This document shows, one piece after another, positions 3,591 to 20,038 of a stretch of 64,000 nucleotides of DNA. The stretch covers positions 1 through 64,000 of the forward strand of contig DYKQ01000002.1 in assembly GCA_020722545.1 (NCBI GenBank). Reading direction: 5' to 3'. The notes under the pieces were generated by a model. The model saw nothing but the letters and a program-made list of their open reading frames with translations, was not told where the DNA came from and ran no database searches. This DNA comes from Thiomonas intermedia. Lineage in GTDB: Bacteria > Pseudomonadota > Gammaproteobacteria > Burkholderiales > Burkholderiaceae_C. Position numbers and translations under genes: made by a program. Position 1 is the stretch's first letter, and each line of letters starts with the position of its first letter.

Positions 3591-5018
3591 CTATAGCTTG
3601 AAGGCGCGTGCGGCCTTGTTGATGCCTTCGCTGAGCATGGGATGCGGAAACACCGTATCGGCCAGGGCCTTGGCGCCGAGCCCTTGTTCGAGCGCCAGCG
3701 CCAGCGGGGCGATCAGTTGCGCGGCGTCCATGCCCGCGATCTGTGCGCCCAGCAGGCGGGCGTCCTGGCGATTGAACACCAGTTTGATGAAGCCTTGCGT
3801 CTCGGCATAGATCTGCGCCCGCGAGTCTTCGGCGTAGTCGTAGCGCATCACGGCCACGGCGTCGGCGCCGAGCGCCGCTTCGGCCTGCGCTGCGGTCTGT
3901 CCTGCGTGCGCCAGTTCGGGCTCGGTGAACACCGTCATGGGCACGGCGTGGAAGGGCATGCGATCCACCGCCTGCCCGCCAGCGGCGATGCAGCGCGCAG
4001 CCACCAGGCTTTGCCGCACGGCGGAATGGAACAGCATGCTGCGTCCATTGACATCACCCGGCGCCCACACCTGCGGGTTGGACGTGCGCAGGGTGTCGTC
4101 CACTTTGACATGCCCGCGCTCCATCGCCAGACCGAGGTGCTCCACGCCTTCGGGCAGCACAGCCACGCGGCCGGTGGCCATGAGTACGGCGTCGCCCTGC
4201 ATGCTGCGCTCGCCGCCGTCCTGCTTGTAGCGCACGTGATAGCCATCGCCCTCGCGCGCGATGCTCAGCACCTGCGCGGAGCGTTCGATGCGCACGCGCT
4301 GCGACAGACTGGCGTGCAGAAAAGACGCCAGCTCGGCGTCGAAACCCGGCAGGATCTGCGGCGCATATTCGAGAATGCTGCACTGGGCGCCGAGGGCCTG
4401 CAGCATCGACGCCGTCTCCACCCCGATGTAGCCGCCGCCGATGATGACAAGATGTTGCGGCAGCGGCAGATCGGCGCCGAGACGAAACAGATCGTGCGAA
4501 GTCAGTGCCAGATCGGCCCCGAGTATGGGCAGGCGCGCGGGCGCCGAGCCGGTGCCGAGTATCAATTGGCGAAAGCGGACTTCGCGCGAACCGCTGCCAT
4601 CGCCGGCATCGATGCGCACGCGATCCGGCGCGACGATCACGCCGCGCCCCTGCACGAAGGCGACGCCGCCCGCGGCGATCTCGCGCGCATGCTGCGCGTA
4701 GCGGGTGTTCTGCACGCGATCCTTGTGCGCCAGCACCGCGCCCCAGTCCACCGCGGGCTTGCCGCCGCGCAGACCGAAGCCGTCGAATTTGTCCGCCAGA
4801 CCGCGCACCAGCGCCGCCTCGCGCACGGCCTTCGAAGGCACGCAACCTTCGGCCAGACAGTCGCCGCCGAGATTGCCGATGGGATCGACCATCAGCACCG
4901 ACAGCCCGGCCTGGGCGAGAAAAAAGGCCCCTGGATAGCCAGCGCCACCGGCGCCGAGCACGAGCACATCCACGTCGTGGCTCAGGCTGGTGAGCGGGGT
5001 TAGAAATTCGAGTGCCAT
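3591..5018 (-). CDS. Dihydrolipoamide dehydrogenase-like FAD pyridine nucleotide-disulfide oxidoreductase
   Basis: This 475-aa flavoprotein starts with a Rossmann FAD motif (VLGAGGAGYPGA, residues 20-31) followed by the redox disulfide CLAEGC (Cys54 and Cys59). A second dinucleotide motif, IIGGGYIGVE, lies mid-protein, and the C-terminal dimerisation domain ends with HPMLSE, which carries the catalytic His-Glu pair. This is the lipoamide dehydrogenase / mercuric reductase class. It is not next to genes for a 2-oxoacid dehydrogenase complex, so its substrate is unclear; CoA disulfide, lipoyl or other disulfides are possible. The ATG at 5018 is supported by GGAGG 7 bases upstream; a longer reading to 5135 would run through the FNR box. 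It is the first gene of the operon with the ATPase and the depolymerase-like hydrolase. Confidence 0.8.
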   Translation of the reverse strand: MALEFLTPLTSLSHDVDVLVLGAGGAGYPGAFFLAQAGLSVLMVDPIGNLGGDCLAEGCVPSKAVREAALVRGLADKFDGFGLRGGKPAVDWGAVLAHKDRVQNTRYAQHAREIAAGGVAFVQGRGVIVAPDRVRIDAGDGSGSREVRFRQLILGTGSAPARLPILGADLALTSHDLFRLGADLPLPQHLVIIGGGYIGVETASMLQALGAQCSILEYAPQILPGFDAELASFLHASLSQRVRIERSAQVLSIAREGDGYHVRYKQDGGERSMQGDAVLMATGRVAVLPEGVEHLGLAMERGHVKVDDTLRTSNPQVWAPGDVNGRSMLFHSAVRQSLVAARCIAAGGQAVDRMPFHAVPMTVFTEPELAHAGQTAAQAEAALGADAVAVMRYDYAEDSRAQIYAETQGFIKLVFNRQDARLLGAQIAGMDAAQLIAPLALALEQGLGAKALADTVFPHPMLSEGINKAARAFKL

Positions 5019-5079
5019 TGCATCCTCCAGACTCCATGCAGAATGCAAAGCATTGGATTGCGGCGGCGCAACATGGCGG

Positions 5080-5093
5080 TTGATGTGCATCAA
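5080..5093. promoter_or_regulatory. Perfect FNR/ANR box
   Basis: The 14 bases are TTGAT-GTGC-ATCAA, a 10/10 match to the FNR/ANR consensus TTGAT-N4-ATCAA. The centre (5086.5) would be 41.5 bases upstream of a transcript start near 5045 on the minus strand, leaving a 27-base leader before the disulfide reductase start at 5018. This is the class II activator geometry, so low-oxygen activation of the reductase-ATPase-depolymerase operon is inferred. Confidence 0.7.
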
Positions 5094-5140
5094 TCTCGCC
5101 AGACCTGCGAATGTCAGACACGCTCCAAAATGCAACGTCG

Positions 5141-10643: not shown

Positions 10644-10657
10644 ATGATTTACATCAA
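10644..10657. promoter_or_regulatory. FNR/ANR-type box in the divergent exporter promoter
   Basis: Read on the minus strand the site is TTGAT-GTAA-ATCAT, 9 of 10 positions of the FNR consensus. Its centre at 10650.5 lies about 41.5 bases from possible start sites on both sides (about 10609 leftward, 10692 rightward), which would leave leaders of 51 and 35 bases to the adaptor gene and the tolC-like gene. One bound dimer could therefore serve both promoters. Confidence 0.55.
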
Positions 10658-10726: not shown

Positions 10727-12139
10727 ATGGCAACGTCTGTTTTCACTGCCCGCCGCTGCGCGCGGCGCCTGCGTCACCTTCGGCTCCTGCGCGTCGTCTG
10801 TTTCATCGGCGGCGTGGTCGGCGTCGGCCTGGCCTTTTCGGGAGCGTCCAGCGCAGAAACTCTGGCGCAGGTCTTCACGCTGGCGCAACAGCACAACCCG
10901 GCGCTGCGCAGTGCGCAGGCGAACTATCAAGCCGCCTTGTCCGGCGTGCCGCTGGCGCGGTCGAAGCTGTTGCCGCAACTGGTGGCGGGCGCCAATTTGA
11001 GCGCCAACGCGCAGGACAACAGCGACAACCCGCTGCTGCAGAAATTCGGCCTGCCCACGCAGTGGAACTACACCTCGCGCGATGTCAATCTGGTGGCCAC
11101 GCAGGCGCTCTATCAACCCGCCGATCATCTCGGGGTCGAACAGGCGGATGTCGCCGCACGCATCGCCTACCTGAAATTCGTGCAGCAAGACCAGGATCTG
11201 ATGCTGCAAGTCGCTGCGCGCTACTTCGACGTGCTCGCCGCGCAAGACAGCCTGCATTCGCTCAAGGAACAGCAAAAAGCGGTGACCCAACAGGTCAAAT
11301 CGGCACAGGCCAATTTCGACGCGGGCAACGGCACCATTGTCGATGTGCGCGATGCTCAGGCGCGCGTCGATCTCACCGCCGCGCAAGTGCTGGCGGCTGA
11401 GAACCAGCTTCAACTCGCGCGCAACAGCCTGCAACAGTTAGTGGGCGCTGCCGTGCACACGCTCGCGCCTCTGCCCAGCAGCACGGCACTGCAGGCGCCG
11501 CTCGGCGACATGCACGCGTGGAGCCGCAAGGCCGAAGAGCACAACCTCGGGGTCGATGAGGCGCTATTGGGCGTGAAACTGGCGCAGCTCAGCGCGAAAA
11601 AGGCCGATGCCGGCTACCGGCCCACCGTCTCCGCCTATGCCCGCGTCGACCACAACGCGACGACGGGCGGCAGCCCGCTGTTTCCCTTCAGCAACCGCGC
11701 CAATGTCGCCAGCGTGGGCGTGCAGATGCGCTGGCCGTTGTTCACCGGCTATGCGGTGCAAAGCGATGTCGAACAGACGGCGCATCTGCTCGAAAAATCG
11801 CAATCCGATCTGGATTCGGCCCGTCTCGCCGCCGCGCAGGAAGCGCGCGCCGCCTACCTCAGCGTGCAATCCGGGCTGGCGCAGGTGAAGGCGCTCGACG
11901 CGGCCATTGCCTCCAGCCGCAGTTCACTGCAGGCGAACGAAACCGGGTTCAAAGTGGGAATGCGGGTCAACATCGACGTGCTCAACGCCCTGTCCCAACT
12001 CTACGAAACCCAGCGTCAGGCCGACAAGGCGCGTTATGACGTGCTGGTCAACACCCTGCGGCTGAAAAACGCGGCAGGTCAGCTCGATCGTCGGGACATC
12101 GACGCGCTGAGCGCCCTGCTCGAACAAAGCGGGCAGTAA
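10727..12139 (+). CDS. TolC-family outer-membrane efflux protein
   Basis: The 470-aa protein has a basic N-terminus and hydrophobic signal segment (about residues 18-42, cleavage likely after ASSA), then two long alternating coiled-coil repeats rich in Ala and Gln, as in TolC. Characteristic stretches are LAQQHNPALRSAQ and the repeat-two copy VDEALLGVKLAQ. It is a trimeric outer-membrane channel of the outer-membrane efflux family. It lies divergently from the YbhGFSR-like operon and shares its putative FNR-controlled promoter, so it is probably that exporter's outer-membrane exit duct. It converges with the FNR-type regulator gene, 18 bases away. Confidence 0.85.
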   Translation: MATSVFTARRCARRLRHLRLLRVVCFIGGVVGVGLAFSGASSAETLAQVFTLAQQHNPALRSAQANYQAALSGVPLARSKLLPQLVAGANLSANAQDNSDNPLLQKFGLPTQWNYTSRDVNLVATQALYQPADHLGVEQADVAARIAYLKFVQQDQDLMLQVAARYFDVLAAQDSLHSLKEQQKAVTQQVKSAQANFDAGNGTIVDVRDAQARVDLTAAQVLAAENQLQLARNSLQQLVGAAVHTLAPLPSSTALQAPLGDMHAWSRKAEEHNLGVDEALLGVKLAQLSAKKADAGYRPTVSAYARVDHNATTGGSPLFPFSNRANVASVGVQMRWPLFTGYAVQSDVEQTAHLLEKSQSDLDSARLAAAQEARAAYLSVQSGLAQVKALDAAIASSRSSLQANETGFKVGMRVNIDVLNALSQLYETQRQADKARYDVLVNTLRLKNAAGQLDRRDIDALSALLEQSGQ

Positions 12140-12157
12140 AACAGGGCTTGACCGGGA

Positions 12158-12937
12158 TCACACCAGCTTGAGCGCGGCACGTTTGGCTGCGGGCTTGCGG
12201 CGAGACGATGTGGGCAGAGTCACTGTCCCGTCGAGCCAGACGCGCAATTCATCCTCTCGCACGATCTCGACATGACGTTTGTCCACCCGCACCACACCCT
12301 GCTCTTGCAGGTGCGACAGAAGACGACTGATGGTTTCCATACTCAGACCGAGGTAGCTGCCGAGTTCTTCTCGGGTCATCAGCAATTCGAACCGGTCGGA
12401 CTCTTCTCCGGCCTGACGCAATTGTTCCTGCCTGCGCAGCAGAAAGCTGGCGATTTTTTGCGTGGCGCTCATGCTGCCGAGCCTGAACTGGTCATGCTCG
12501 GCCCGAGCGAGGCTCTCGGACACATAGGTCAGCAGATGTTCGAGCAAGCTGCGGTCAGCGCCAACGATGGACTCCACCGCAGCCATCGAAAACTCGCAGA
12601 TCGTCGAAGGGGCCAGCGCGACCAGATCGGTCGTGTAGCGTTGCTGTGCAAACCCGCTCAGGCCCATCAATTCGCGTGCATAGTGAAAGCTGACGATCTG
12701 CGATTGCCCGTCTTCGCCAATCTCTACCGCCTTGAACCCCCCGCTCACCACCAGGTAGAGATGTTTGAAGGGCATGCCGCTGTGCACCAGGGTTTCACCC
12801 CTGCTCAATTCCAGCGTTGCGTCGGCGGCTTCGGTCACGCGCTGCCGCAAGACTGCGTTCAGGTCTGCAGGCAGATTGCCGTCGCAGGGATGCGGATGGC
12901 ATGAGCGGAACTGAGCCGGAATGGAATGGCGTTTCAT
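12158..12937 (-). CDS. FNR/CRP-family transcription regulator with incomplete cysteine set
   Basis: The 259-aa protein has a cyclic-nucleotide-type sensor domain (about residues 35-130), a long dimerisation helix and a winged helix-turn-helix. The recognition helix contains METISRLL, whose E..SR residues are those FNR uses to read TTGAT. Cysteines are at 13, 18 and 114. E. coli FNR needs four (20, 23, 29, 122) for its [4Fe-4S] cluster, so one N-terminal ligand is missing from this form. A TTG start at 12970 would add 11 residues including one more cysteine. I chose the ATG at 12937; neither start has a strong Shine-Dalgarno. It is the natural candidate to bind the FNR-type boxes at 5080, 10644 and perhaps 20096. 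Basic C-terminal tail (about 20 residues) is unusual. Confidence 0.82.
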   Translation of the reverse strand: MKRHSIPAQFRSCHPHPCDGNLPADLNAVLRQRVTEAADATLELSRGETLVHSGMPFKHLYLVVSGGFKAVEIGEDGQSQIVSFHYARELMGLSGFAQQRYTTDLVALAPSTICEFSMAAVESIVGADRSLLEHLLTYVSESLARAEHDQFRLGSMSATQKIASFLLRRQEQLRQAGEESDRFELLMTREELGSYLGLSMETISRLLSHLQEQGVVRVDKRHVEIVREDELRVWLDGTVTLPTSSRRKPAAKRAALKLV

Positions 12938-12962
12938 GTGCGAATTCAGTGAATTCGCGCAT
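12936..12962. promoter_or_regulatory. 27-bp near-perfect palindrome over the start of the FNR-type gene
   Basis: The core GCGAATTCA-G-TGAATTCGC (12940-12958) is a perfect 9-bp inverted repeat about one central base. It extends to ATG...CAT at 12936-12962 with one mismatched pair. It covers the chosen start codon and the stretch between the TTG and ATG start candidates. It does not match the FNR consensus, so it would be an operator for another regulator or an RNA hairpin over the start. Confidence 0.5.
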
Positions 12963-13018
12963 GCTAACAAGCCCTTTGCGAAAGGTTGTGAGCAAAGGTG
13001 CGCCGCGTGTTGGTCAAC

Positions 13019-13471
13019 TCAAACCTTGGGCTCTTCTCCAGCATGCACGATCAATACCGGAACCGTGCTGCGCTGTGCCACGCCTTCGGCCACGCTGCCC
13101 AGAATCAGGCGGCGCACGCCGCTGCGGCCATGGCTGCCGATGACAATCAGATCGGCGCCCCAGCGATGCCCTTCCGCCAGGATGGCATCGGCCACTCGCG
13201 GCAAGGCCTGCGTGGTTTCCACCACGGCGGAACTGACATCCATGCCCGGAGCACGCGCTTCATTGACCCAGCGGTCGAGCAATAGCCGGGCGTCGTTGCC
13301 CAGGACGCTGAGGAATTCTGGCGAGGAACTCAGCAGTCCGTTCGCCTCCACGACCACGACGAAACGAATCGCAGCCATTTGGTCCCGCGCCAAGGCTGCG
13401 GCCTGGGCGGCGGCGGATTGAGCGGTCCGACTGGCGTCTATGGGAACCAGGATTTTTTTGTAGGTGGACAT
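13019..13471 (-). CDS. Universal stress protein (UspA family)
   Basis: This 150-aa single-domain protein begins KKILVPIDAS, the first strand and Asp of the Usp fold, and ends with the nucleotide-binding motif GSHGRSGVRRLILGSVAE (G-2X-G-9X-G-S), so it should be the ATP-binding type. Such proteins accumulate in stasis or oxygen limitation and are common members of ANR/FNR regulons. It lies 51 bases after the next leftward gene and upstream of the FNR-type regulator. No FNR box is evident immediately upstream. Confidence 0.9.
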   Translation of the reverse strand: MSTYKKILVPIDASRTAQSAAAQAAALARDQMAAIRFVVVVEANGLLSSSPEFLSVLGNDARLLLDRWVNEARAPGMDVSSAVVETTQALPRVADAILAEGHRWGADLIVIGSHGRSGVRRLILGSVAEGVAQRSTVPVLIVHAGEEPKV

Positions 13472-13522
13472 GATGCCTCGTCGGGTGAATAGAACAGGAA
13501 TACAAAAAGAAAGGAAACCCCA

Positions 13523-13909
13523 TCAAATGCCGAGCATCTGGTCTTTGGCTTTGAAGTAATGCCGGGCGTGGGCGACGAGCTGAGCGTCGGTCGGATGATC
13601 GGCCGACTCCATACCCAGCACATGCTCGGCCACAGCGGGGTCATGATGCTGCAGATGCTTGAACAAAGCCAGCTTGGCCTGCCCAGGGCCGGTGATGAGC
13701 ACCTCGGGAATGCCGACCAGGGCTTGCGCCACCTTGTGATAGAAGTGCTGATCTTCAGGCGCCTTGCCGCTGCCGATGACGCCGCTCATGACGTGCAGAT
13801 GCGGATGCTCCTTGGGCATGATGATGGATTTTTCGATATCCGCCGGATCGATGAACAGCACGCGAGCCTGAGCATGATCGACCCAGACGACTGCATGACG
13901 ATGTGCCAT
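13523..13909 (-). CDS. Translational-machinery-type protein (eRF1 domain 3-like)
   Basis: The 128-aa protein is His-rich and contains VLITGPGQAKLALFKHLQ, resembling the C-terminal domain of archaeal/eukaryotic release factor eRF1 and Pelota, where a similar stretch occurs. Similar short proteins are annotated as translational machinery protein in Burkholderiales and Rhizobiales, often near stress and low-oxygen genes. It has no catalytic signature, and its function is unknown. GGGAG lies 8 bases before the ATG. It is followed at 51 bases by the universal stress protein gene and probably cotranscribed with it. Confidence 0.7.
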   Translation of the reverse strand: MAHRHAVVWVDHAQARVLFIDPADIEKSIIMPKEHPHLHVMSGVIGSGKAPEDQHFYHKVAQALVGIPEVLITGPGQAKLALFKHLQHHDPAVAEHVLGMESADHPTDAQLVAHARHYFKAKDQMLGI

Positions 13910-13986
13910 GATGAAACTCCCTTTGAAAGCGAATACACAAGAACAACGTTAGCAGCGCCCACCCGTCATTTCATTGACCTGGCTTG

Positions 13987-14241
13987 AACCAGATTGTCCA
14001 TTAGGCGGGGCTACGCCCCTACACGGGCGCTGGCGGGCGCCTTGGGGCGTCTTTGCCCCCGCGCTTCGCGCCCATAGCGACGGCTATGGGCGCGAAGCGC
14101 AGGGCCAAATCCATCCCCACCCCAACCCTCCCCACTCGTGGGGAGGGAGTGATCTCACCTCCCCCACGCCGTGGGGGAGGTCGGGAGGGGGATGCCCAAG
14201 GCGCCGCGCCCTCATCCCGTGTCCTAATGAACAATCTGGTT
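13987..14241. mobile_element. MITE-like element with 19-bp terminal inverted repeats
   Basis: The left end AACCAGATTGTCCATTAGG (13987-14005) and the right end CCTAATGAACAATCTGGTT (14223-14241) are inverted repeats matching at 18 of 19 positions. Subterminal ACACGGG and GGCGCCTTGGG blocks are also repeated in inverse order (14021-14046 against 14195-14222). Inside are three strong hairpins. There is no coding sequence and no target-site duplication that I can see. The region holds the whole 314-base gap between the 13909 start and the ATPase stop, and the right terminal repeat supplies the last codons and stop of the ATPase gene. It looks like a non-autonomous mobile element, but no second copy is present in this window. 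Confidence 0.6.
14061..14100. repeat. Perfect 18-bp hairpin inside the MITE-like element
   Basis: Bases 14061-14078 and 14083-14100 are exact inverted copies separated by GACG. Two further hairpins follow at about 14129-14146 (CTCCCCAC/GTGGGGAG) and 14159-14181 (CCTCCCCCAC/GTGGGGGAGG). None has a T-run, so they are not typical intrinsic terminators, though they could stop or stabilise transcripts from both sides. Confidence 0.75.
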
Positions 14242-16731
14242 GAATGTGCGCTGTTTGAGCAGATGCAAAAAGCTGCGGTGCCGCGGCGTGCTGCGATCGA
14301 AGTGGCGATAGACCGCGAGCTTGGCCTGGTCTTCGACGAAGGCCCAGAACACGCAATACACCCAGATCAACCCCACCGCCGACCAACTGATCGGCGCGAT
14401 CAGGCCCATGGGAAACACCACGAACAGCGTCGCCAGCGCCTTGGTGAGAATGGCTGACCACAGCAAAGCGGGCGACGGCCAGGGTTTTTTCCAGAAGGCA
14501 TTTTTGCTGCGCGCGACAAATAGCGTGAGATGGCCGGAGACGGCCAGTTTGAGGAAGATGAAGGTCTGGATGCTGCCCATGTCGAGCTTCATGTAATCGT
14601 GCGCAAAACTCAGCAGCAGCAGGGTTTCGCCCACGCCGATCAGACCCAGCACGGTGGACACGGTGATGACGCGCCGCATGTCCCAGCGCACCGGTTGCGG
14701 ATCGACGGCAGTGCGGTCGTAGGCGATGGTCATGATGGGCACATCGTTGAAGAAGGCCAGCAAGATGATCATCACCGCGGTGATGGGGTAGAAGTTGTAG
14801 GCGAGCATGGCCGCCACCACGAACACCATGATGCGGATGGTTTCGGTGATGCGGTAGATGGCGTAGCTGTTCATGCGCTCGAAAATGCGCCGCGCCTCTT
14901 CCACCGCCTTGACGATGGTGGACAGCCCCGGCGCGGTGAGGATGAGCGCGGCGGCCGCGCGCGCCGCGTCGGTGGCGCCGGATACGGCGATGCCCACATC
15001 GGCCTGTTTGAGCGCGGGGGCATCGTTGACGCCGTCGCCGGTCATGGCCACGCGGCGCCCGGCGTCCTGCAGGGCCTTGACGATGCCGTATTTGTGTTCG
15101 GGGAAGACCTGGGCGAAGCCGTCGGCGGTATCGATCCGGTCGGCCAGGCTCACTCCAGGCTGCTGCTTGCCCGCATCGAACACATCGCCCGCGGCCACGA
15201 TCTGCGTGCCGATACCGAGCTGCCCGCCGATTTCGCGGGCAATCGCCACGTTGTCGCCAGTGACCATCTTCACCGCCAGGCCGTGGCTGCGGGCGTCGGC
15301 GATGGTTTGTTTCGAGTCGCTGCGCGGCGGGTCGAACAGCGAGAGCAGCCCATCGAGTTGCCACGCGCCATCACCGCGCCTGCTGGCCACGCCGAGGGTG
15401 CGCAGCCCTTTGACGGCCTGGGCGTCGATCCAGGCAGTGGCCTTGCTGCGGGTGGCGTCATCCAGTTTGCACAGATCGAGAATGACCTGCGGCGCGCCCT
15501 TGGTGGCGGCGAGCGGCGTGCCCTGCGCGTCGGTCCAGCGGCCTTCGCTGCGCTTGCCCACCGGGTCGAAGGGGGTGAAACCGGCGGCGGTGTAGCCGGC
15601 GGGCGTGGCGGTTTGCACGGGCTGCGCGGCGTACACCGCCTGATCGATGGCGTCGCCGTTGTCGGGCTGGCTGGCCAGCGCAGCGTGCAGGTTCAGCGTG
15701 GCGGCATCGGGCGCGGCCAGCAGCAGCGGGTCGCCCAGGGTGAGCTTGTTCTGCGTGAGCGTGCCGGTTTTGTCGGAGCACAGCACATCCACCGCGGCCA
15801 GTTCCTCGATGGATTCCAGCCGCGAGACGATGGCCTTTTCTTTGGAGAGCGCCAGCGCGCCCAGCGCCATGGTCACCGACAGCACCGCGGGCATGGCCAC
15901 GGGAATCGAGGCCACGGTGAGGATGAGGGCGAATTGCAGCAGATCGATCCACGGCAGACCGCGCTGCAGTTCGACCAGCACCAGAATCGCCACCAGCCCG
16001 AGGCTGACATAGATGAGGTAGTCGCCGATATTGAGCACGGCCTTCTGGAAGTGCGACACCGCGCCGGCTTTCTGCACCAGTTGCGCGGTCTTGCCCAGAT
16101 AGGTGTTGACCCCGGTGGCATAGACCACGCCGACCATCTCGCCCTGCTTGGCAATGGAGCCGGAATACACCACCTCGCCCAGCTTGCGGCTGACCGGCAG
16201 CGACTCGCCAGTGAGCGCCGACTGATCGACGCTGAGATAGTCGCCCTCGATCAGCTTGAGGTCGGCCGGAAGAATGTCGCCCAGACGCACGCGCACCACA
16301 TCGCCGGGCACGAGCTGCGCGGTGTCGATCTGCGCCCACTGGCCGTCGCGCTTGACGCGGCACTTGAGCGCGAGCTGCTTTTTCAGCGCATCGAGCGCGC
16401 TGCTGGCCTTGAACTCCTGCCAGAAGCCGATGCCCGCGTTGAACAGCAGCAACAGCACGATGATGATGAAATCCGGCCAGTGCCGCACCAGCGCCGAGAG
16501 CAGCGCGGCGACTTCGATCATCCACGGAATCGGCCCCCAGAAATAGCGCAGCAGGCGCATGAGCAGGCTGACATGCTGCTCCGGCAGGCTGTTGGCGCCG
16601 CCCTGCGCCAGCCGCCGCGCGGCTTCGGCCTGGGTGAGGCCATCCGCGGTGCTGCCCAGCGATTGCAGCAGCGCCTCGGCCGACATCGCGGCAACGGCCT
16701 TGGCATCGAGTGTTGGATTCGTCGGATTCAT
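14224..16731 (-). CDS. P3A-type plasma-membrane proton ATPase (second copy)
   Basis: This 835-aa P-type ATPase has TGES at 174-177, the phosphorylation motif with Asp320 in DKTGTLTQNK, and TGDGVNDAP in the P-domain. Core length and motif spacing fit the P3A proton pumps, and it is distinctly different in sequence from the 795-aa ATPase at 1194-3581. It should pump protons outward. The start at 16731 has GGAAGGTGG just upstream and overlaps the MFS stop as ATGA, so translation is coupled; a longer upstream reading lies within the MFS gene and was rejected. The last residues NQIVH and the stop come from the terminal repeat of the adjacent MITE-like element, so the native C-terminus may have been slightly altered. 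It ends the five-gene phasin operon. Confidence 0.85.
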   Translation of the reverse strand: MNPTNPTLDAKAVAAMSAEALLQSLGSTADGLTQAEAARRLAQGGANSLPEQHVSLLMRLLRYFWGPIPWMIEVAALLSALVRHWPDFIIIVLLLLFNAGIGFWQEFKASSALDALKKQLALKCRVKRDGQWAQIDTAQLVPGDVVRVRLGDILPADLKLIEGDYLSVDQSALTGESLPVSRKLGEVVYSGSIAKQGEMVGVVYATGVNTYLGKTAQLVQKAGAVSHFQKAVLNIGDYLIYVSLGLVAILVLVELQRGLPWIDLLQFALILTVASIPVAMPAVLSVTMALGALALSKEKAIVSRLESIEELAAVDVLCSDKTGTLTQNKLTLGDPLLLAAPDAATLNLHAALASQPDNGDAIDQAVYAAQPVQTATPAGYTAAGFTPFDPVGKRSEGRWTDAQGTPLAATKGAPQVILDLCKLDDATRSKATAWIDAQAVKGLRTLGVASRRGDGAWQLDGLLSLFDPPRSDSKQTIADARSHGLAVKMVTGDNVAIAREIGGQLGIGTQIVAAGDVFDAGKQQPGVSLADRIDTADGFAQVFPEHKYGIVKALQDAGRRVAMTGDGVNDAPALKQADVGIAVSGATDAARAAAALILTAPGLSTIVKAVEEARRIFERMNSYAIYRITETIRIMVFVVAAMLAYNFYPITAVMIILLAFFNDVPIMTIAYDRTAVDPQPVRWDMRRVITVSTVLGLIGVGETLLLLSFAHDYMKLDMGSIQTFIFLKLAVSGHLTLFVARSKNAFWKKPWPSPALLWSAILTKALATLFVVFPMGLIAPISWSAVGLIWVYCVFWAFVEDQAKLAVYRHFDRSTPRHRSFLHLLKQRTFNQIVH

Positions 16732-18254
16732 GTTCCACCTTCCGTAAGAGATGCGGGCAGTGCAGCCTTGGGGCGGCGCCTCGGCAAAGTTTGAGTTTGA
16801 TGCTGTTCCAGCGTGAGCCCGTGGCCGTACATGCTGAACGCCCAGGTGCTGAGCAGCCCGAGCAGGCTCACCCCCGCCATCATCGCCAGCACCGTCGGCA
16901 CGCCCAGAGAAGACTTGATCAGCGGCAAGGTGAACACCCCGAGCGTGGCGCCCACCTTGGCGACCGAAGCGGCAAAGCCCGCGCCCGTGGCGCGCAACTG
17001 CGTGGGGTACAGCTCGGTCGGCAGGATGTAGGTGGTGCTGTTCGGCCCCATATTCATGAACAGGTTGAACACCACAAAACCGAAGAACACCAGCCCCGCG
17101 TGCGCCGCATCGCCCCCGGCGAGCACCGTGCTCAACCACAGCGCCGCCATGCCGAAGGCCATGCCGCCAAAGCCGATGAGCTGCATGCGAATGCGCCCGA
17201 ACTTCGCCACCGCCCACAGGCCGATGACAAAGCCGAGCAGCAAGAACACATCGATCAGCCCCGTGCCGCGCGCCAGTGCTGCCACATGCGGCGCCAGGGA
17301 CAGCCCCTCGCCCGCCACATGCATCTGCGCCAGCAGCACGGCGGTGAACAGCCCCACGCCATAAGTCGCAATATCCATCAAAAACCAGGGAACGGTGCTC
17401 AGCAGCGTGCTGCGCAGATAAGCCGGGTGAAACAGCAGGCCGTAGCCCTGCGTCTTGGCCGACTGCGGCACGCGCGCGACGTAATGCACCGTATCACCCA
17501 GGCGCGAGGCCATGCGTTCGAGCTGGCGGCGGTCCGAGGGCACGAAGCGTTCGAGCATGTGTACCGCTTCGCGGTTGCGGCCCTGCCCGATCAGCCAGCG
17601 CGGGCTTTCCGGCAGATTCAGCCGCCCCAGCAGAAACAGCAGCGCAAGCAGCATTTCCGTGGCAAAGAACCAGCGCCAGACTCCCGGCTCAGGCACAAGA
17701 TGCAGCAGCGCCAAGGACAGCAGCGCCGCGACGATGAGCCCGACCGACTGGCAGGCGATGGTGGCCACCATCATGCTGCTGCGTTTTTGATGCGGCATGC
17801 ATTCGGCGACATAGCTGCCGCTCACCGGAAAATCCATGCCGATGCCCACGCCGACCACGAACTGCGCGGCAATCAGCCCCCAGGCATTCCAGGTCAGCGC
17901 GCTGAAAGCCGCGGCCGCCGCCAGAATCGCCATGTCGAGCAGAAACACCGATTTGCGGCCAAAGCGGTCGGCCAAGCGCCCGCCCCAAACCGCGCCGCCG
18001 ATGGCCCCGGCCACCAGCGCCGCGCCCAGCAGCCCGGTTTGCAAGGCCGACAGACCCAGACCCGGAGTCAGCAGCGGAATGGCCATGCCCAGCATGAACA
18101 CCGACAGCCCGTCGATCAGCGTGCCGCCGCTGGCCAGCGCCCAGGCCAGATCGTGCGGCAGGCGCATCGGCGCCGCATCGAGCAGGGCGATGATCTGCGC
18201 GTGATCAGGGTGAACGGCAGCGCCCTGCGACTCGGCCTGGATGGTGGTTGCCAT
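16728..18254 (-). CDS. MFS transporter, sugar/metabolite:H+ symporter type
   Basis: The 508-aa protein has twelve predicted helices and the MFS loop motif GGRLADRFGRKS between helices 2 and 3, with a related PESPRWL at the end of helix 6, as in the sugar porter and phosphate/metabolite-proton symporter families. The N-terminus is about 35 residues longer than usual and hydrophilic. It lies 11 bases after ppk2 and overlaps the ATPase by 4 bases. Phosphate or an organic acid would suit its neighbours (polyphosphate kinase and proton pump), but this is inference. Confidence 0.8.
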   Translation of the reverse strand: MATTIQAESQGAAVHPDHAQIIALLDAAPMRLPHDLAWALASGGTLIDGLSVFMLGMAIPLLTPGLGLSALQTGLLGAALVAGAIGGAVWGGRLADRFGRKSVFLLDMAILAAAAAFSALTWNAWGLIAAQFVVGVGIGMDFPVSGSYVAECMPHQKRSSMMVATIACQSVGLIVAALLSLALLHLVPEPGVWRWFFATEMLLALLFLLGRLNLPESPRWLIGQGRNREAVHMLERFVPSDRRQLERMASRLGDTVHYVARVPQSAKTQGYGLLFHPAYLRSTLLSTVPWFLMDIATYGVGLFTAVLLAQMHVAGEGLSLAPHVAALARGTGLIDVFLLLGFVIGLWAVAKFGRIRMQLIGFGGMAFGMAALWLSTVLAGGDAAHAGLVFFGFVVFNLFMNMGPNSTTYILPTELYPTQLRATGAGFAASVAKVGATLGVFTLPLIKSSLGVPTVLAMMAGVSLLGLLSTWAFSMYGHGLTLEQHQTQTLPRRRPKAALPASLTEGGT

Positions 18255-18265
18255 GCGCCCCGCCC

Positions 18266-19060
18266 TCAGGCCGCCACGCGCCCTTGCGCCACCACGTCGT
18301 GGGTGTAGTTGAACACCACGTCGGGATCGGGGCAGAGCAGGGCGTGATCCTTGTCGGCGTAATCCAGCCGGGTGAGCAGATCCATGATGAGGTTGAGCCG
18401 CGCCTGCTTCTTGTCATTGGCGCGCACGATGGTCCAGGGGGCCGTGGGCGTGTGCGTGCGGGCGAACATGGCGTTGCGCGCGGTGCTGTAGTCTTTCCAG
18501 TGCTTTTGTGCGACGGCGTCGATCGGGCTCATCTTCCACTGCTTGAGCGGATCGGTGAGCCGATCCTTGAGGCGCCGCTTCTGTTCAGCCTTGTCGATGT
18601 CGAGGTAGTACTTGAACAGTTGAATGCCCGAACGCACCAGCATCTGCTCGAACGTCGGCACCGTCTCCATGAATTCCTCGTACTGCGCCTCGGTGCAAAA
18701 GCCCATCACCCACTCCACCCCGGCGCGGTTGTACCAACTGCGGTTGAACAGCACGAATTCCTCGGCCGCCGGCAGATGCGGCACATAGCGCTGGAAGTAC
18801 CACTCCGACTCATCGCGGGTGGACGGTTTGCCCAGCGCCACCACGCGGGTGTCGCGCGGCGAGAGGTGCTCGATGACGCGCTTGATGGCGCCGTCCTTGC
18901 CCGCGCTGTCGCGCCCTTCGAGCAGGATGAGAATGCGGTCGCCCTTGGCGATGAGGTGCTTCTGGAATTTGACCAGCTCGATCTGCAGGGCTTCGAGGGT
19001 TTTGCCATAGCCGTGATCGGGATCGACAGCCTGTTTTTTGGAAGCGTTTTTCTGTCTCAT
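18266..19060 (-). CDS. ppk2: Polyphosphate kinase 2, class I
   Basis: The 264-aa protein has one kinase domain with Walker A GRDSAGKDG (about 49-57), a lid region, and the PPK2 signature FNRSWYNRAGVE. A single domain with these motifs is class I, which usually phosphorylates NDP from polyphosphate. It links polyphosphate to nucleotide pools. The start at 19060 follows GGAGATTGAA; a reading 9 codons longer is possible but lacks a ribosome site. It lies 32 bases after the AhpD-like gene in the phasin operon. Confidence 0.9.
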   Translation of the reverse strand: MRQKNASKKQAVDPDHGYGKTLEALQIELVKFQKHLIAKGDRILILLEGRDSAGKDGAIKRVIEHLSPRDTRVVALGKPSTRDESEWYFQRYVPHLPAAEEFVLFNRSWYNRAGVEWVMGFCTEAQYEEFMETVPTFEQMLVRSGIQLFKYYLDIDKAEQKRRLKDRLTDPLKQWKMSPIDAVAQKHWKDYSTARNAMFARTHTPTAPWTIVRANDKKQARLNLIMDLLTRLDYADKDHALLCPDPDVVFNYTHDVVAQGRVAA

Positions 19061-19092
19061 TTCAATCTCCTTGATTCGGGATCTCACCGCCC

Positions 19093-19455
19093 CTAAACCT
19101 GCACCGCGTCTGGAAGAACAAACTCATCAATGGCCTCGAGCAAGGGCGTCATGTACATCATTGCGGGGCCGCCGTGCATCAGCACCGCCAGGAACCCGGC
19201 CTCGATCAGTTCGTCGCGTTTCGCCCCGGCACGCGCTGCCTGCTTGACGTGAAACGCGATGCACCACTCGCATTGCGCCGCGACAGACAGCGCCACATTG
19301 ACCAGTTCTTTCTGCTTGCCCGACAGCGCTGGGCCGGATTCCGCCTTGCCCATGAAGTTCATGAAGGCCTGCACTTCGTTGGGATGACTTTTGCCGAGCG
19401 TGGACAGCAACGACTCGATCTCGTGCAGACGCTCGCGCATGGAGCCTTCGGTCAT
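19093..19455 (-). CDS. AhpD-like carboxymuconolactone decarboxylase family protein
   Basis: The 120-aa protein has the family signature CEWCIAFHV with Cys62 and Cys65 three residues apart and a nearby His, the arrangement of AhpD-type disulfide/peroxidase-linked proteins. Alpha-helical throughout. It could act as a small thiol reductase or peroxidase partner; the lipoamide-dehydrogenase-like protein at 3591-5018 would be a possible electron donor, which is speculation. AAGGAAG precedes the ATG. It lies 31 bases after the phasin gene. Confidence 0.8.
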   Translation of the reverse strand: MTEGSMRERLHEIESLLSTLGKSHPNEVQAFMNFMGKAESGPALSGKQKELVNVALSVAAQCEWCIAFHVKQAARAGAKRDELIEAGFLAVLMHGGPAMMYMTPLLEAIDEFVLPDAVQV

Positions 19456-19486: not shown

Positions 19487-20038
19487 TCACTTGCGGCGCG
19501 CAGCCGATGCCGCCGAAGCCCGGCTGGCTGCGGCGGTTGGCTTGGGCGCTTGGGCGCTCATCAACCTGGCGGCCTGCTGCTGCGTGTCTTGCAGGGTGTT
19601 GAGCGCCTGGGTGGTCCAGTTCATGGCGCTTTGCAGCAAGGCCTGCATCGGCTCAACTCCGGCGGGCGCTGCTGCGCTCGCGTTCTGCCCGAGGCTGTCG
19701 TGCAGGCTGTTTTGCAGGCGCTCAAGTCTGGACTGCAGAATCTCGGTCATTTCGGCCTGGGTCGCAGAGGCGATCTGCCCGAATTTCTCGACGTAGCTCA
19801 TCACGTTTTCGCCCCCTGCGCGCGCGGCATTCGCCCACTCAGCGCCGGGCGCAGATCGGGTTTCTTGCCCGCCGACCGCCGATTGCAGCGTCTGCGCCGC
19901 TTGCTGCGCCATCAGACGCATGGTTTGCATCTGCAACTGGGTCAGTTGCTCATAGCCGCGAAAAAGCACCTGATTCAAGGCCACGGCGGCTGCCAGCTCG
20001 GCCTTCTGCAAGTCTTTCAGCGATTCGGTCGGATTCAT
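19487..20038 (-). CDS. Phasin family protein (PHB granule-associated)
   Basis: The 183-aa protein is almost entirely amphipathic helix, rich in Ala and Gln, with the phasin-like stretches LFRGYEQLTQLQMQTM and FGQIASATQAEM, and a basic Ala-rich tail ending AARRK that may bind DNA or polyphosphate. Phasins coat PHB granules. GGGAG lies about 7 bases upstream of the ATG at 20038, better than a start four codons earlier. It is the first gene of an operon that continues with the AhpD-like protein, ppk2, the MFS carrier and the ATPase, tying PHB to polyphosphate and proton export. Confidence 0.82.
   Translation of the reverse strand: MNPTESLKDLQKAELAAAVALNQVLFRGYEQLTQLQMQTMRLMAQQAAQTLQSAVGGQETRSAPGAEWANAARAGGENVMSYVEKFGQIASATQAEMTEILQSRLERLQNSLHDSLGQNASAAAPAGVEPMQALLQSAMNWTTQALNTLQDTQQQAARLMSAQAPKPTAAASRASAASAARRK

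Follow-up and report, generated by a model that had tools for sequence, protein, structure and literature searches.

In the 64,000-nucleotide stretch of Thiomonas intermedia DNA analysed here (the window), the CRP/FNR-type regulator that we call FNR2 is best read as a genus-restricted FNR paralog that would carry no [4Fe-4S] cluster (Table 1). The open reading frame 12158-12970 (minus strand) reported in a preliminary description of this DNA was confirmed, its ATG form starting at 12937. FNR2 matched the Pfam domains cNMP_binding, HTH_Crp_2 and Crp, each above its cut-off, and the closest solved structures were FNR-type regulators (5cvr/8qto series). The recognition helix reads E201-T-I-S204-R205, and the E..SR DNA-reading residues recognised earlier (E201, S204 and R205) are present in 8/8 FNR2 proteins and likewise in 42 canonical relatives. 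The NCBIfam Fnr model NF008365 gave 114 bits, below its cut-off of 228. Its domains and recognition helix are those of FNR. FNR2 has neither the ligand motif nor a sufficient score in the curated family model, however, and so is best classed not as an oxygen-sensing FNR but as an FNR-derived member of the CRP/FNR family that lacks the cluster motif. The gene is real and held by purifying selection, as the dN/dS among the FNR2 orthologs is 0.10-0.25. No paper describing the FNR2 group was found in a literature search of incomplete coverage.

Table 1. Features of the FNR2 gene and of the array upstream of it (window coordinates)
Feature	Coordinates	Strand	Remark
FNR2, CRP/FNR-type regulator, 259 aa	12158..12937	-	ATG 12937, stop 12158
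Recognition helix E201..S204-R205	12323..12337	-	Same as FNR (alignment)
Cys114 codon	12596..12598	-	Equivalent of E. coli FNR Cys122; invariant 8/8
Cys18 codon	12884..12886	-	Sole N-terminal loop ligand kept; invariant 8/8
Cys13 codon	12899..12901	-	Window-specific, not a ligand position (ortholog alignment)
Palindrome/hairpin over the FNR2 ATG, CATGCGCGAATTC ACT GAATTCGCACATG	12935..12963	-	Kept in the four closest orthologs
Proposed TTG extension, 11 codons	12938..12970	-	Judged non-coding: TTAGCAT -10-like element and 5' arm of the palindrome
UspA, universal stress protein	13019..13471	-	Directly upstream of FNR2 in 8/8 FNR2 genomes
128-aa conserved protein	13523..13909	-	No Pfam match
P-type (E1-E2) cation ATPase	14224..16728	-	Start codon provisional
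MFS (sugar-type) transporter	16728..18254	-	
Polyphosphate kinase 2 (PPK2)	18266..19087	-	
Carboxymuconolactone decarboxylase/AhpD-type protein	19093..19455	-	
Phasin_2 protein	19487..20038	-	Heads the co-directional array
Conserved putative FNR box, ATGATGCAAGTCAA	20096..20109	-	58-71 nt upstream of the phasin ATG

Thiomonas sp. and a Burkholderiaceae assembly both carry close relatives of FNR2. The gene is present in 8 of the 13 genomes of the genus, the seven other copies being 53-91% identical to that of the window, and no further FNR2 was detected outside the genus among 399 genomes of the order and 369 of the class at the thresholds used. Viral contigs yielded no FNR2 relatives, and plasmid records only relatives of 33-36% identity. 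The same genome encodes a canonical FNR (L002; C18-x2-C21-x5-C27 plus the central cysteine) that is approximately 40% identical to FNR2; a CcoG-like ferredoxin protein is encoded near L002. The eight FNR2 sequences formed one group on one side of a branch in the tree (support 94/91). Two other paralogs, both from a single genome, joined this group on a long branch; the topology does not identify the FNR from which FNR2 descends. FNR2 and the canonical FNR of the lineage have in common the PHPCD motif and, in the dimerization helix, a Leu143/Ala146 pair. Genome G207 encodes two FNR-like paralogs lacking the cysteine loop (L022 and L030), one of them without the N-terminal cysteine and the other without the central one.

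The preliminary description had listed cysteines 13, 18 and 114 in the ATG form, which translation confirmed, and had considered the protein one ligand short. The loss is larger. Compared with L002, FNR2 lacks six residues of the C-x2-C-x5-C loop (PHPCD[LCFQSKFC]LPIAL in the canonical protein, PHPCDG-NLPADL in FNR2), and the deletion takes away two of the three N-terminal ligands, leaving one loop cysteine and the central cysteine. The deletion is present in 8/8 FNR2 orthologs, while the loop motif is intact in all canonical copies of the genus examined and in 29/29 FNR relatives drawn from the order. The Cys13 column reads H/H/H/Q/Q/H/S in the other seven orthologs. At window positions 12898-12903 the TCG-CAT of the nearest relatives reads TCA-TGC, as if four bases had been inverted (GCAT to ATGC). 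Cys18 and Cys114 are invariant (8/8), compared with 0/9 of the other cysteine-containing columns (Fisher p=0.018); which loop cysteine matches Cys18 varies with the alignment, being the first in one and placed otherwise in another. His16 is invariant as well, and the lineage's canonical FNR has PHPC too. The earlier view of a non-canonical FNR-type regulator without the standard four-cysteine site thus stands, with a redox role as a possibility only.

FNR2 is the last gene of an array running phasin, AhpD-type protein, PPK2, MFS transporter, P-type ATPase, 128-aa protein, uspA and FNR2, and this order is conserved across the genomes compared. In genome G166 the genes from PPK2 to uspA are present, FNR2 is cleanly absent and other genes come next. 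In six genomes examined, the site upstream of the phasin gene (ATGATGYAARTCAA) starts 71-78 nt before the phasin start; it matches TTGAT-N4-ATCAA at 8-9 of 10 positions. In five diverged promoters, 12/14 of its positions were invariant vs. 2/100 flanking positions (p=1e-12). The site occurs in 1-2 copies per genome. G202 and the eight FNR2 genomes all have it, and it precedes a phasin gene in nine genomes. The box and FNR2 co-occur (8/8 vs. 1/5, p=0.007), but this is not independent evidence because both belong to the same array. Allowing one mismatch, the whole window contains six FNR boxes against 2.7 expected, modestly above chance; the phasin box is the only one of these candidates backed by cross-genome conservation.

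Other box-like sites were observed. A perfect box (TTGATGTGCATCAA, window 5080-5093) lies just upstream of a dihydrolipoamide dehydrogenase-type gene (3591-5135, minus strand), and L031 has a perfect box (TTGATTTGCATCAA) at the corresponding side of the array. A box-like site between divergent HlyD-type and TolC-type genes (ATGATTTACATCAA, window 10644-10657) is kept only in L031, the closest relative. The genome of the window has a second ATGATGCAAATCAA site (G000, contig 130, L093), preceding a gene that encodes a cytochrome c motif (CIACH).

We consider it reasonably likely that FNR2, starting at the ATG, works free of a cluster, and that the canonical FNR drives the array while FNR2 sustains or tunes it together with other FNR-box genes. 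The oxygen signal would probably enter at transcription: the cell's canonical FNR would be the sensor and, acting at the conserved box, would turn on the phasin-led array. FNR2 would then be produced as the last product of this array, and its dimer would bind FNR-type sites with no need for the standard cluster, acting back on the array and on other genes with such boxes. The stress-gene cluster ending in FNR2 thus probably answers to low oxygen, and its reading as a single operon would be less secure if, as is possible, a promoter lies between uspA and FNR2. Heterodimers of FNR2 with the canonical FNR are a possibility, since an interaction between Fnr1 and Fnr3 was detected in Herbaspirillum (PMC5934665).

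Cluster-free dimerization is predicted from the dimerization helix. Leu143 and Ala146 of FNR2 align with Ile151 and Asp154 of E. coli FNR, and the D154A substitution allows E. coli FNR to form dimers without the cluster (PMC5934665); because Ala146 occupies the equivalent position, FNR2 dimers are predicted to form likewise. Alanine is found at this position in 8/8 FNR2 and in 13/13 canonical FNR of the lineage, compared with D or E in 28/29 other relatives. The alanine is therefore not special to FNR2, as the canonical FNR of the lineage has it too, and this counts against the preferred reading. It occurs naturally in the canonical proteins L002, L009-L013, L021 and L023-L028, other Burkholderiales having Asp/Glu. 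The invariance of Cys18, Cys114 and His16 also counts against the preferred reading, as plain loss of sensing would not predict it.

The conservation of Cys18 and Cys114 is the main reason to take seriously a reversible disulfide between them as a control of DNA binding, a mechanism put forward for the Lactobacillus casei two-cysteine FLP. FLP-type proteins have two conserved cysteines, one N-terminal and one central, and L. casei FLP and Streptococcus suis FlpS resemble FNR2 in having only two (Cys18 and Cys114 in 8/8 FNR2) and no ligand loop; the likeness is one of general placement rather than of aligned residues. These proteins are from Gram-positive bacteria, whereas FNR2 looks derived from a proteobacterial FNR. 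Two-cysteine FNR-like proteins are possibly cluster-independent (PMC5039431). Cys18 and Cys114 should lie close together, because both contact the same cluster in FNR; the structure predicted for FNR2 from four sequences had a mean pLDDT of 50, falling below 50 over residues 1-148. The invariance was scored in a small sample of one genus, and Cys114 falls in a stretch that is generally conserved (29/29 FNR relatives). On balance we regard the disulfide as possible but doubtful. It is compatible with the transcriptional route and would add a second, post-translational input. Also doubtful is a scenario in which, in one betaproteobacterial genus, FNR was duplicated and its loop excised, the two leftover ligands being kept as a thiol/disulfide or mixed-ligand metal switch, so that the cell has an oxygen-labile and an oxygen-stable FNR sharing DNA sites.

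A metal or Fe-S cluster held by mixed ligands (His16, Cys18, Cys114 and another residue) appears unlikely. His16 is invariant along with the two cysteines, and PMC5039431 cites a suggestion of non-cysteine ligation in L. lactis FlpA, but two of the three loop ligands are gone, and with PHPC in canonical FNR too, His16 may be mere inheritance. Binding of heme or nitric oxide, as in DNR/NnrR, is improbable. DNR and HcpR likewise lack the FNR cysteine motif (PMC1274295) and FNR2 has a weak PDB match to DNR (E 1.5e-10); nevertheless, FNR2 is much closer to FNR (about 1e-25), DNR/NnrR/HcpR are more distant in sequence, and the array neighbouring FNR2 contains no nitrogen-oxide genes.

The preliminary description had also suggested that the choice of start decides whether the protein can hold a cluster. 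An in-frame TTG 11 codons upstream of the ATG does exist and adds one cysteine. M1, K2 and R3 at the ATG are invariant in all eight orthologs, and the TTG, its open 11-codon frame and the extra cysteine are kept only in the window copy and its three closest orthologs (L014, L015 and L016). Orthologs L017, L018, L019 and L020 have no ATG, GTG or TTG between the conserved ATG and the upstream stop; an in-frame stop lies 8-10 codons upstream of the ATG in L018 and L019. The DNA of L020 reads ATGA, its uspA stop overlapping the FNR2 ATG. The extra cysteine precedes Cys13 by approximately 20 residues, a distance far outside any FNR spacing, and just 1-2 nt separate AAGGG from the TTG.

DNA elements, rather than coding, account for the apparent conservation of the extension across the four closest genomes. 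TTAGCAT is suggestive only as a -10-like element; its counterparts TAGCAT, TAGGAT or TAACAT are found at -28 to -33 in L017-L019, and no good -35 element was found beside it. The palindrome over the ATG gives a good RNA fold (z -3.4 for the window sequence) and was not found in L017-L019. As its covariation, from four sequences only, was not above that of shuffles, it is not claimed as an RNA element; it could be an operator or a translation-blocking hairpin. One compensated pair was seen in L016, and Rfam gave no match within 12000-14000. The TTG was rejected as a functional alternative start because there are orthologs without any upstream start. The TTG form is very unlikely to matter, given these orthologs, the invariant M-K-R and the DNA elements that better explain the stretch; that it is made and restores a four-cysteine cluster is barely credible, as the ligand loop remains missing even with the extra cysteine.

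FNR2 shares with FNR/ANR (E. coli FNR, P. putida ANR and L002) the domain order, the E..SR helix and the C122-equivalent cysteine, and would likely read the same DNA site; it differs in the six-residue deletion with its two lost loop ligands and in a basic C-terminal tail absent from the canonical copy. Herbaspirillum seropedicae has several FNR paralogs per cell, as here, but its Fnr1 and Fnr3 keep the cluster cysteines. In that organism, Fnr3 directly activates a phasin gene, and Fnr1 and Fnr3 co-activate two usp genes at low oxygen (PMC5934665). Both Herbaspirillum and the low-oxygen-activated (lxa) locus of B. cenocepacia have phasin and/or Usp genes under low-oxygen control.

FNR2 thus offers a natural FNR that has lost the cluster loop and is still under selection, in a conserved stress cluster and with an intact FNR in the same cell. 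The lineage-wide alanine at the E. coli D154 position may have freed dimerization from the cluster, a testable route to cofactor loss. The arrangement would help to explain the low-oxygen wiring of phasin, polyphosphate, cation-pump and stress-protein genes in Thiomonas-type bacteria.
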